The notes under the pieces: generated by a model
The model's input: the letters and a program-made list of their open reading frames with translations, nothing else
Databases searched by the model: none
What the model was told of the DNA's origin: nothing
In this document: in pieces, positions 11,115-37,624 of the stretch
Layout of the letters: every line of letters starts with the position of its first letter
Numbering within the stretch: position 1 is the stretch's first letter
Program-made: the position numbers and the translations under genes
From: Actinomycetota bacterium
Lineage (GTDB): Bacteria > Actinomycetota > Acidimicrobiia > Spongiisociales > UBA5794
Direction of reading: 5' to 3'
Assembly: GCA_011371355.1 (NCBI GenBank)
Contig: DRQR01000178.1
Span: 1-39,743 of the forward strand
DNA: 39,743 nucleotides

Positions 11115-11131
11115 CATCACTCCTTGTGATG
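11115..11131 (-). promoter_or_regulatory. GGA-loop hairpin at flgE Shine-Dalgarno (candidate CsrA site)
   Basis: Minus-strand RNA CAUCAC-AAGGA-GUGAUG, 6-bp stem, ACAAGGA core. Confidence 0.55.
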
Positions 11132-11160: not shown

Positions 11161-11175
11161 CTCCCATCCGGGGAG
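11161..11175 (-). promoter_or_regulatory. Second GGA-loop hairpin in flgE leader
   Basis: Minus-strand RNA CUCCC-CGGAU-GGGAG, perfect 5-bp stem with GGA in loop. Confidence 0.45.
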
Positions 11176-11221: not shown

Positions 11222-11248
11222 CCGTCGGCGGAGGGGCCGACCCCTTAA
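11222..11248 (-). promoter_or_regulatory. Sigma28-like promoter motif upstream of flgE
   Basis: Minus strand TTAA-N15-GCCGACGG, about 110 nt before flgE ATG. Confidence 0.62.
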
Positions 11249-11265
11249 GAGGTCGACGGCCGGGC

Positions 11266-11998: not shown

Positions 11999-12020
11999 GG
12001 GGTGATCGGTCGCGGGTGCC

Positions 12021-12047
12021 TTATCTGGACGCCGAGCCTGCCGACCG
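12021..12047 (+). promoter_or_regulatory. Sigma28-like promoter motif upstream of flgN1-flgK-flgL-fliW-csrA
   Basis: Plus strand TTAT-N15-GCCGACCG, 10 nt before ATG 12057. Confidence 0.5.
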
Positions 12048-12056
12048 GGTTCTCGT

Positions 12057-12578
12057 ATGGACGGCAAGCTGCATCTCCGGTGCCTCGGGCGACTCGCCGA
12101 CGTGCTCTGGTACGAGCGTCGGCTCATGGAGTTCCTCCTGTTCAAGCTCGTCGCGGCCAACCTCATGCTCGAGGCCGACGAGCAGCGCTTCATCGGTCCC
12201 GCCCTCGCCGAGGTGGAACGCGTGATCGCCGAGATCCGCAGCACGGAGGAGGAGCGGGCCGAGCTCATCGCCGAGCTCGCCGAGCTCGAGGGCACCGACC
12301 CCGCCGCGATCACCCTCGCCCATCTCGCCCTCGAGGCCCCCGAAGAGCTGCGGTCGGTCTTCGAGGATCATCGGGCTCGCTTCCTCGAGCTCACCGGCGA
12401 GATCGAGGCGGTGACCCGGGAGAATCGGCGACTCGCCACCCTCGGCCTCGGAGGCATCCGCGCCACCTTCGGGATGCTCGAGGGGCCCACCACCGCCCCG
12501 ACCCGCTACGACGCCGCCGGCCGACCCCGCGAAGATCGCCTGCCGGTGCCGCCGGCGAGGATCGACGAGGTGCTCTGA
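12057..12578 (+). CDS. flgN: FlgN-like flagellar export chaperone (paralog 1)
   Basis: Helical 173 aa protein directly upstream of, and 1-nt overlapping, flgK; FlgN-type position and composition. Confidence 0.7.
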   Translation: MDGKLHLRCLGRLADVLWYERRLMEFLLFKLVAANLMLEADEQRFIGPALAEVERVIAEIRSTEEERAELIAELAELEGTDPAAITLAHLALEAPEELRSVFEDHRARFLELTGEIEAVTRENRRLATLGLGGIRATFGMLEGPTTAPTRYDAAGRPREDRLPVPPARIDEVL

Positions 12579-14861: not shown

Positions 14862-15278
14862 ATGAGCGACGAAGCCACCACCATCGAAGACAAGACGATC
14901 CGCTTCCCCGGCGGCATCCCCGGGTTTCCCCAGCTCGAGCGGTTCGTCCTCGTCGAGGTCGCCCCCGACTCGCCCTTCCACGAGCTCCGCTCCCTCGACG
15001 ATCCCGACGTGGCGATGCTCGTGACCGTTCCCTGGTTGTTCTTCCCCGACTACGCCCCGGAGATCCCCGAGGAAGACCGGGTGGAGCTCGGCATCGAACG
15101 CCCCGAGGACGCGACGGTCTTCACCACGGTGAGCTTCGACCCCGACGACGAGAACGCCCTGATCCTCAACCTCCTCGGTCCCTTCGTCGTCAACGTCGCC
15201 GAGCGCGTCGGACGTCAGCTCGTGCTCGCCGACAGCGACTATCCCGCCCGGGCCCGCGTCGAGCTGGCGGCCACCTGA
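14862..15278 (+). CDS. fliW: Flagellar assembly factor FliW
   Basis: IRFPGGIPGFPQLERFVLVEV...FPDYAPEIPEEDRVELGIERPEDATVFTTVSFDPDDENALILNLLGPFVVNVAERVGRQLVL; overlaps csrA by 1 nt. Confidence 0.96.
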   Translation: MSDEATTIEDKTIRFPGGIPGFPQLERFVLVEVAPDSPFHELRSLDDPDVAMLVTVPWLFFPDYAPEIPEEDRVELGIERPEDATVFTTVSFDPDDENALILNLLGPFVVNVAERVGRQLVLADSDYPARARVELAAT

Positions 15279-15532
15279 TGCTCGTCCTCACCCGGCGACC
15301 CGGCGAGTCGATCGTCATCCAGAACGACATCGTGGTGACGATCGTCGAGATCCGGGGAGGGCAGGTGCGCATCGGCATCGATGCGCCTCGACACGTCCAG
15401 ATCCACCGGGCCGAGGTCTACGAGCAGGTGCGCCGAGAGAACGTCGCCGCCGTCGAACAGGCCGAGGCGGCGAAGCGCCGCCTACGGGCGACGAGCCTCG
15501 ATCGGCTCACCGAATCCGGCCCCGGGTCCTAG
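15278..15532 (+). CDS. csrA: Translational regulator CsrA
   Basis: MLVLTRRPGESIVIQNDIVVTIVEIRGGQVRIGIDAPRHVQIHRAEVYEQVRREN, canonical CsrA with extended C-terminus (84 aa). Confidence 0.97.
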   Translation: MLVLTRRPGESIVIQNDIVVTIVEIRGGQVRIGIDAPRHVQIHRAEVYEQVRRENVAAVEQAEAAKRRLRATSLDRLTESGPGS

Positions 15533-28205: not shown

Positions 28206-28459
28206 CGCGCCTCACCTCCCTCGAGGGAGTGGAGACGCACCACCTCGGCCTTGCCGTGATCGAGGAGGTCGTCGGCATACGCCAAGATCGCGGCCCGGAC
28301 GTGACGGATGCGAGCGACGATGTCGGCCGGGCTGTCGAGGACGACCATGCGCCGGCCGTTGGCGAGGACGAGGACGGTGTCGGGGAGCTGCTCGACGGCC
28401 TCGATGAGGTCGGCGTTCACGAGGATCGAGCTCCCCTGTAGGGGCGTGACGGGGATCAC
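28202..28459 (-). CDS. flbD: FlbD-family flagellar protein (paralog 2)
   Basis: PLQGSSILVNADLIEAVEQLPDTVLVLANGRRMVVLDSPADIVARIRHVRAAIL; GTG start with AAGGAGG upstream; upstream of motA. Confidence 0.88.
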   Translation of the reverse strand: MIPVTPLQGSSILVNADLIEAVEQLPDTVLVLANGRRMVVLDSPADIVARIRHVRAAILAYADDLLDHGKAEVVRLHSLEGGEAR

Positions 28460-28465
28460 GGATAC

Positions 28466-28479
28466 GCACCTCCTTGTGC
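28466..28479 (-). promoter_or_regulatory. GGA-loop hairpin at flbD2 Shine-Dalgarno (candidate CsrA site)
   Basis: Minus-strand RNA GCAC-AAGGAG-GUGC with ACAAGGA core. Confidence 0.5.
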
Positions 28480-28485
28480 CCTCGG

Positions 28486-28503
28486 TCCCACGTCCGTGTG
28501 GGA
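28486..28503 (-). promoter_or_regulatory. Second GGA-loop hairpin in flbD2-motAB leader
   Basis: Minus-strand RNA UCCCAC-ACGGAC-GUGGGA, perfect 6-bp stem. Confidence 0.5.
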
Positions 28504-28530: not shown

Positions 28531-28557
28531 CTGTCGGCGAGACGGCCCGCTCGATAA
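28531..28557 (-). promoter_or_regulatory. Sigma28-like promoter motif upstream of flbD2-motA-motB
   Basis: Minus strand TTAT-N15-GCCGACAG, between flgD stop and flbD2. Confidence 0.55.
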
Positions 28558-28565
28558 GGCCTCGA

Positions 28566-36033: not shown

Positions 36034-36431
36034 CGGCCGATCCTCAACGCGGTCTCGTAGGCCTCACGGGACGTCTCGATGACCCGCAGGTTGAGCTGGT
36101 AGCTGCGCTGGGCGACGATGAGGTCGGCCATCTGGCCGGCCATGTCGACGACCGGGAGGGTGACGATGCCGTCCTCGTCGGCGAGGGGGTGGGTGGGGTC
36201 GTACACCCGCATCGGCGCTCCCTCCTGGTCGACGAACCGGCGAACCCGGACGCCCGAGCCGTTGTACCCGGGGCCCTCGACGTTCTCCTCGGCCCACACG
36301 AGGTCGGCGCGGAAGGGCTCCTCACCCGGGGGACGGACCGTGTTGACGTTCGCGAGGTTGTGGGCGATGGTGTCGAGCCACGTCTGGGCGAGCCCGACAC
36401 CCGAGGCGGCGATGTCGAGGGACTCGAACAT
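36030..36431 (-). CDS. flgC: Flagellar rod protein FlgC
   Basis: LDIAASGVGLAQTWLDTIAHNLANVNTVR...PVVDMAGQMADLIVAQRSYQLNLRVIETSREAYETALRIGR. Confidence 0.96.
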   Translation of the reverse strand: MFESLDIAASGVGLAQTWLDTIAHNLANVNTVRPPGEEPFRADLVWAEENVEGPGYNGSGVRVRRFVDQEGAPMRVYDPTHPLADEDGIVTLPVVDMAGQMADLIVAQRSYQLNLRVIETSREAYETALRIGR

Positions 36432-36787
36432 CAGCGGCTCCCCTGGATCGCCGAGCGGAGGAGTCCCGCCTTGTAGTTGAAGGCCTCGACCATCGCGGAC
36501 TGGAGGAGATTCGTCTTCATCATCTCGATGACCTCCTGCTCGATCACCACGTTGTTGCCGTTCGCGCCCGGCGGCGCCCCGGTGGGAACGATCCTCGGTG
36601 CCTCGGCGGCTCCGACCCGACCCCGCTCGAGGGCACGACGGAGCTGGTCCTCGAAGGCGAGGCGGGCCGCCCGGAAGTTGGGGACCTCGGCGTTCGCCAC
36701 GTTGTGGGCGGTGACCTCGGCCCGCCGAGCCAGCGCGCCGAGGGCGTATTCGAGGGCCTGCATCGTGGTGTCGCTGATCGGTGGCAT
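36431..36787 (-). CDS. flgB: Flagellar rod protein FlgB
   Basis: From MPPISDTTMQALEYALGALARRAEVTAHNVANAEVPNFRAARLAFEDQLRRAL (36787); GNNVVIEQEVIEMMKTNLLQSAMVEAFNYKAGLLRSAIQG. Confidence 0.95.
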   Translation of the reverse strand: MPPISDTTMQALEYALGALARRAEVTAHNVANAEVPNFRAARLAFEDQLRRALERGRVGAAEAPRIVPTGAPPGANGNNVVIEQEVIEMMKTNLLQSAMVEAFNYKAGLLRSAIQGSR

Positions 36788-36788
36788 G

Positions 36789-36804
36789 CGTTCCCTCCGG
36801 AACG
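36789..36804 (-). promoter_or_regulatory. GGA-loop hairpin enclosing flgB Shine-Dalgarno (candidate CsrA site)
   Basis: Minus-strand RNA CGUUCC-GGAG-GGAACG, perfect 6-bp stem, one nt before AUG. Confidence 0.5.
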
Positions 36805-36808
36805 AACG

Positions 36809-36848
36809 GCAGGCCAAGGCGAGAGCCTCCGGCTCTTCCTTGGCCTGC
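36809..36848 (-). promoter_or_regulatory. Long GGA-triloop hairpin in flgB leader (candidate CsrA site)
   Basis: Minus-strand RNA GCAGGCCAAGG-A-AGAGCC-GGA-GGCUCU-CG-CCUUGGCCUGC: 11-bp plus 6-bp stems with GGA apical loop. Confidence 0.55.
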
Positions 36849-36885
36849 GCGAGATCCGTCTCGTGTATGGGTCGTTCGGACCTCC

Positions 36886-36912
36886 CCGTCGGCCCGAGGT
36901 CGACGGGCTTAA
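36886..36912 (-). promoter_or_regulatory. Sigma28-like promoter motif upstream of flgB operon
   Basis: Minus strand TTAA-N15-GCCGACGG, in the flgB/fliT-like gap. Confidence 0.6.
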
Positions 36913-37220
36913 GGGGACCCGAAGCGCGCCGGCGCTCCGCCTCCGAGGTAGGCACGGACGGCCCGGCGCTGCAGGCCGGCGTGTTCGAGGTCGACCGCCG
37001 TGGCCCGGCGGCGACGATCGAGGACCTCGCGGAGGCCGATCGTGCGTTCGAGGACCGCGACGAGGCGGCCGTGGAGCTCCGGGGACGGCACGACGCCGGT
37101 GGGGAGCACGACCTCGATCGCGTCGAGCCGTTCCCAGTCGCCCTCGGCGAGGGCGTCCTCGACCTCCCGGAGGGTCGCCTCACACCGGTCGAGGAGCTCG
37201 GCCATCTCCCGGGCGGTCAT
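36909..37220 (-). CDS. FliT-like small flagellar protein / hypothetical
   Basis: 103 aa, helical, located fliD-fliS-(this), the usual fliT position; overlaps fliS by 4 nt. Assignment mainly positional. Confidence 0.5.
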   Translation of the reverse strand: MTAREMAELLDRCEATLREVEDALAEGDWERLDAIEVVLPTGVVPSPELHGRLVAVLERTIGLREVLDRRRRATAVDLEHAGLQRRAVRAYLGGGAPARFGSP

Positions 37221-37624
37221 GACGCGGTCTTCAGCGCCGTGGCGGCGACGGCGAAGCCGTCTCGGAGCTCGCCGAGGATCCGTTCGACGGTCTCGAGGTC
37301 CCTCGAGTCCTTGTCGAGGTTCGCCGCGGTGAGTCGATCGAGACAGAAGTCGTAGAGGGCGTGGAGGTTCCCGGCGAGACCACCGCCCCGTTCCCGATCG
37401 AGGGAGAGCTGGAGTTCGCCCACGATCGCCTGGGCTCGGGTGAGGGCCTCGTGGGCGGCCTCGATCCGGTTCGGGTCGTCGCCGGTGAGGGCGACGCGGG
37501 CGGTGGCCACGTTCTCGATCGCCTTGTCGAACACGAGGAGCAACAGGGCCTCCGGCCCGGCGGTCTCGACGGCCGCGCTCGTGTAGGTGCGAGCCGCCTT
37601 CGCGTGGGGGGACGGGCGGATCAT
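37217..37624 (-). CDS. fliS: Flagellin export chaperone FliS
   Basis: From MIRPSPHAKAARTYTSAAVETAGPEALLLLVFDKAIENVATA...LYDFCLDRLTAANLDKD; ATGA overlap with fliD. Confidence 0.94.
   Translation of the reverse strand: MIRPSPHAKAARTYTSAAVETAGPEALLLLVFDKAIENVATARVALTGDDPNRIEAAHEALTRAQAIVGELQLSLDRERGGGLAGNLHALYDFCLDRLTAANLDKDSRDLETVERILGELRDGFAVAATALKTAS

Follow-up and report, generated by a model that had tools for sequence, protein, structure and literature searches.

Predicted two-site CsrA leader upstream of flgB and a candidate CsrA regulon over flagellar leaders in an acidimicrobial actinobacterium

Leaders repressed by CsrA at two sites, and the control of flagellin by CsrA and FliW, are already known. 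CsrA selects the SELEX consensus RUACARGGAUGU, with GGA presented in hairpin loops, and its dimer bridges sites 10-63 nt apart (PMC7652899). In C. jejuni, the flaA leader contains two ANGGA stem-loops, the second of which covers the ribosome-binding site, with compensatory changes in the stems and fliW present (PMC4894983); the flgB leader described below shares these features. The flaA leader, 45 nt long, belongs to a flagellin gene and has its GGAs 21 nt apart, whereas here a long stem lies between the two sites and rod, hook and motor operons are candidate targets as well; C. jejuni flgB mRNA was itself hardly enriched with CsrA (1.6x; PMC4894983). Our leader likewise resembles B. subtilis hag of the CsrA-FliW-Hag system, which has two CsrA sites, one over the Shine-Dalgarno sequence (SD), and fliW and csrA as partners, but which the consulted part of PMC7652899 describes for flagellin, with neither an inserted long stem nor rod, hook or motor targets. 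A third parallel is E. coli glgC, where an upstream GGA hairpin tethers the CsrA dimer for bridging to the SD (PMC7652899); glgC is a carbon storage gene under CsrB/C sRNA control, whereas a search with Rfam found no Csr-type sRNA in our window.

CsrA-FliW control of flagella has so far been a matter of Firmicutes and Campylobacterota, and mostly of flagellin. Our literature search turned up nothing on the targets of CsrA in Actinobacteria, Acidimicrobiia included, and in a paper on actinobacterial flagella CsrA and FliW each appear a single time, as queries of a search (PMC10746217). The mechanism is thus known but apparently undescribed in Actinobacteria, and what is new here is a predicted actinobacterial CsrA regulon over rod, hook, motor and filament leaders. 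If the prediction is true, an actinobacterial lineage applies the same RNA switch to all four, downstream of one sigma28-like promoter class, and it becomes testable how old the CsrA-FliW checkpoint is and what it originally covered.

We analysed a stretch of 39,743 nt (the window) that forms contig C178 in an assembly of 2.46 Mb and carries a flagellar cluster of an acidimicrobial actinobacterium. On the minus strand, the flgB leader is predicted to fold into three hairpins (Table 1). Two of these had been described in an initial annotation and were recovered exactly where it placed them, namely a distal hairpin of 11 bp plus 6 bp with a GGA triloop (hairpin II; 36848-36809 reads GCAGGCCAAGG-A-AGAGCC-GGA-GGCUCU-CG-CCUUGGCCUGC) and a fully paired 6-bp stem that has the SD as its loop and ends 1 nt 5' of the AUG at 36787 (hairpin III). 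A further hairpin directly 5' of the long one (hairpin I) was missed by that annotation and begins 2 nt beyond its interval. The leader has a folding energy of -59.9 kcal/mol vs -47.2 +/- 3.6 for shuffles (z -3.5; 0/200 shuffles). Hairpin II, previously judged far larger than chance for a non-terminator position, indeed has a folding energy that puts it in the top 0.06-0.08% of the window's 44-nt stretches, as the second-strongest distinct site, and is followed by no terminator-like U tract. The window, L007 and L008 also folded with a stem that closes around hairpins I and II by long-range pairing; it was inconsistent across relatives and is set aside here as a possibility.

Table 1. Positions of the predicted leader elements, promoter-like sites and genes in the window
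Feature	Position	Strand	Sequence	Remarks
Sigma28 (FliA)-like promoter of flgB operon	36886..36913	-	CTTAA-N15-GCCGACGG	CTTAA and GCCGAC invariant in 11 relatives
Hairpin I	36850..36863	-	CGAGA-CGGA-UCUCG	ANGGA in 21/21 flgB leaders; stem covaries between families; GGA at 36857-36855
Hairpin II (long stem; distal hairpin of the initial annotation)	36809..36848	-		Loop GGA unconserved; 5' arm A(A/G)GGA(A/U)G(A/G) conserved
Hairpin III (SD hairpin)	36789..36804	-	CGUUCC-GGAG-GGAACG	Partly conserved in relatives
flgB (flagellar rod)	36434..36787	-		PF00460 at flgB and flgC; downstream flgC, then fliE, fliF, fliG (these three named from their sequence only)
Sigma28-like promoter 5' of flgE	11222..11249	-		
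flgE leader hairpin	11161..11175	-	CUCCC-CGGAU-GGGAG	ANGGA-type loop in relatives, stems differ
flgE SD hairpin	11115..11131	-	CAUCAC-AAGGA-GUGAUG	Same stem with GAAGGA loop in L116, L117; flgE start 11109
Sigma28-like promoter 5' of flbD-like/motA operon	28531..28558	-		
flbD-like leader hairpin	28486..28503	-	UCCCAC-ACGGAC-GUGGGA	
flbD-like SD hairpin	28466..28479	-	GCAC-AAGGAG-GUGC	SD element also in L173, L174; gene start near 28459, then motA
Sigma28-like promoter of operon ending in fliW and csrA	12020..12047	+		First ORF ATG at 12057
fliW, protein antagonist of CsrA	14862..15278	+		PF02623, E 9e-35
csrA, proposed ligand of leader hairpins	15278..15532	+		PF02599, E 2.6e-26

Transcription across the leader is likely because a conserved sigma28-like promoter sits directly upstream, which agrees with the earlier placing of the leader between promoter and gene; the transcript is expected to start near 36880. 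Four sites of the form CTTA(A/T)-N15-GCCGACNG with identical spacing occur in the window, compared with 0 in 100 shuffles, and precede flgB, flgE, the flbD-like/motA operon and the operon ending in fliW-csrA; they are assigned to sigma28/FliA by likeness to the consensus. The -35-like CTTAA at 36909-36913 (minus strand) includes the stop codon of a 103-aa ORF upstream, which gives a possible second reason for its conservation.

A lone GGA-loop hairpin is no rarity in this GC-rich window (24 of score at least 12 on both strands of 39.7 kb), and the case for the flgB leader therefore rests on conservation. FlgB was present in 15/99 relatives and in 22/138 genomes of the order. All 21 flgB leaders, drawn from Acidimicrobiia families and in one case (G230) from outside the order, carry A-N-GGA at the position of hairpin I, and in most of them it stays within a hairpin loop, on stems that vary and covary: GAUCGA-AGGA-UCGAUC in L058/L059, GGCC-ACGGAUC-GGCC in L020/L061, UGC-ACGGAA-GCA with about three pairs only in L063/L064, and CCGGUC-AUGGAUC-GACCGG in L102, which belongs to another order. 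No clean stem was predicted in L018/L019. Across 17 distinct leaders, 79% of cells in the four inner pairs were standard; shuffling lowered this to 46% and sliding the partners to 19-43%, and covariation was 0.69 vs 0.20. This covariation signal is a between-family comparison: the 11 aligned leaders of family f1 have in common CTTAA, GCCGAC, hairpin I with an NGGA loop and the hairpin II 5' arm CANGGAAGA, and the hairpin I stem is invariant among them, with no covariation. In the predicted fold of L011/L014, a UCCA just 5' of the SD pairs with the hairpin I UGGA, and this pairing replaces hairpin I; it could be a switch or chance.

The initial annotation had made its reading depend on relatives carrying the inverted repeats, and comparative alignment found the large one retained, in the form of a long stem that separates the two GGA sites. 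Its GGA triloop fared differently, being CGG in the two closest relatives and CACCUG, CAUCAG or UUGA elsewhere; lacking conservation, the triloop was ruled out as a CsrA site. Wherever a flgB leader has hairpin II, its 5' arm carries A(A/G)GGA, even if the partner has changed. The SD hairpin with a GGA or AGGA loop can be recognised in L013 and L011/L014 but is not conserved in L007, L008, L010 and L016, so that this part of the annotated structure extends to some relatives only. When a covariance model of the f1 leader was run against 396 genomes of the class, it returned the flgB leaders, one genome with a decayed flgB (G024) and a site in G145, which lies inside an ORF and was discarded as chance. 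Both flgB and csrA were undetected in G024, whose remnant leader (CGAGA-UUGU-UCUCG) has kept the arms and lost the GGA. Two near-identical contigs of this genome carry the decayed leader (L098 and L107, on C98 and C135), and L107 may run on into a degenerated flgB.

The succession of sigma28-like promoter, ANGGA hairpin and GGA-containing SD recurs in the window 5' of flgE and of the flbD-like/motA operon, and in relatives 5' of flgE and flagellin. An ANGGA-type loop was found in 20 flgE leaders on widely varied stems, such as CCGGCUC-ACGGAUC-GAGCCGG, GGAGAUCG-ACGGAU-CGAUCUCC and CGAUGCC-AUCGGAC-GGCAUCG. The flbD-like leader of two relatives carries CAUCCAA-AGGGA-AUUGGAUG at the same place, and the flbD-like/motA leader of the window (28558-28459, minus strand) is probably a third CsrA target there. 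In 14 flagellin leaders, the hairpin takes the form (G/A)AC-ANGGAN-GU(C/U) with covarying outer pairs (96% paired, compared with 15-62% for slid partners; covariation 0.47 vs 0.28), and in many of them an SD of the form ACAAGGAGGU follows. In each of the three leader sets, GGA is the commonest of the 64 possible loop triplets (16/21 flgB, 13/20 flgE and 13/14 fliC leaders), whereas UCC, its equivalent on the other strand, is rare as a loop triplet (1/21, 0/20 and 1/14, respectively). The significance of a single GGA hairpin within its own leader is not our main argument because most leaders give only modest values (p about 0.005-0.3 in those with such a hairpin); what argues for these hairpins as a class is their recurrence at homologous places.

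The proposed ligand and its antagonist are encoded in the same window, where fliW and csrA adjoin each other. The protein encoded by csrA can be aligned with solved CsrA/RsmE structures, among them the 5dmb CsrA, and retains intact LTRR (N-terminal) and HR motifs, the RNA-contact residues of CsrA. Among the 138 genomes of the order, csrA was detected in 24 and flgB in 22, with both in 21; the one flgB genome in which csrA was undetected, G047, is 76% complete.

Together, these observations lead us to propose the flgB leader as a two-site CsrA (RsmA) translational repression leader, a prediction to which we assign a probability of roughly 0.85. Transcription would start from the FliA/sigma28-type promoter about 95 nt 5' of flgB, and the ANGGA in the loop of hairpin I, the proposed high-affinity site, would tether one face of a CsrA dimer. 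The second face would then grip the GGA of the SD, in this genome within the loop of hairpin III, a candidate second CsrA site over the ribosome-binding site, and would thereby block 30S binding; GGAGG is also a generic SD, so the CGGAGG in this loop counts for little by itself. Hairpin II is proposed to act as a rigid spacer that loops out 40 nt and brings hairpin I near the SD. With hairpin II looped out, the path between the two GGAs, 59 nt in sequence, shrinks to about 19 nt, and both distances are within the published 10-63 nt; over the flgB leader set, the distances are 46-73 nt raw and 11-38 nt collapsed. FliW, encoded just 5' of csrA, would remove CsrA once flagellin is exported and so release translation, and flgE, the flbD-like/motA operon and, in relatives, flagellin would come under the same control. 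Every sequence-level test supports membership of the CsrA leaders, with binding itself a prediction, and motility in this organism is probably controlled at translation, as in Bacillus and Campylobacter.

Other explanations of the conserved elements were weighed against this one. The sequence of hairpin I, CGAGANGGATCTCG, is a short inverted repeat just 3' of the -10 element and is invariant in family f1, and could thus be read as a DNA operator of a flagellar transcription factor rather than an RNA element. Such an operator would be expected to keep its arms in either orientation around a variable centre, and the opposite is seen at hairpin I, where the arms change together between families and the asymmetric GGA is retained, in every case on the sense strand, with UCC loops rare. 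Moreover, the only other exact copy in the genome (C87) lies inside an enoyl-CoA-hydratase-like ORF and was set aside as chance, and we consider the operator reading highly improbable. Much the same holds for the notion that the SD hairpin alone, free of any protein, sets a low basal or temperature-dependent (thermosensor-like) rate of translation: it is suggested by the enclosure of the SD in a perfect 6-bp stem in the window, but the strength and form of this hairpin vary among relatives and the conserved ANGGA hairpin upstream would be left unexplained, so that we give it very little credence. Rfam yielded no match at gathering score in the window, and chance-level matches only below that threshold.

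Hairpin II invites a further reading, as an intrinsic terminator or attenuator that controls read-through transcription of flgB, possibly with CsrA acting on it through the GGA in the 5' arm. A strong GC stem between promoter and gene, the U-rich RNA that follows it in some relatives (CCCUUUUCUUUU in L063/L064, UUCUUUCGAUUUU in L007) and the conservation of A(A/G)GGA in the 5' arm even where its partner changes all speak for it. The window, however, has no terminator-like tail there, with no terminator-like site found in 36400-37300; no conserved U content after the stem was found among relatives, and no competing antiterminator was seen. We therefore regard attenuation as unlikely, and a terminator role of hairpin II as less likely than the spacer role. 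Equally doubtful is the related idea that A(A/G)GGA is a third CsrA site at which CsrA, binding co-transcriptionally, would keep the long stem from forming and so switch folding or termination in addition to blocking the SD.

The operon ending in fliW-csrA (12020-12060, plus strand) has almost no leader, and its first codons read AUGGAC, so that an ANGGA and the start codon overlap. Just upstream of fliD, at the contig end, lies the window's strongest hairpin (GGGGAGGGCCCGG-cccgc-CCGGGCCCUCCCC, 39578-39532), which may terminate a flagellin gene located past the end of the contig.
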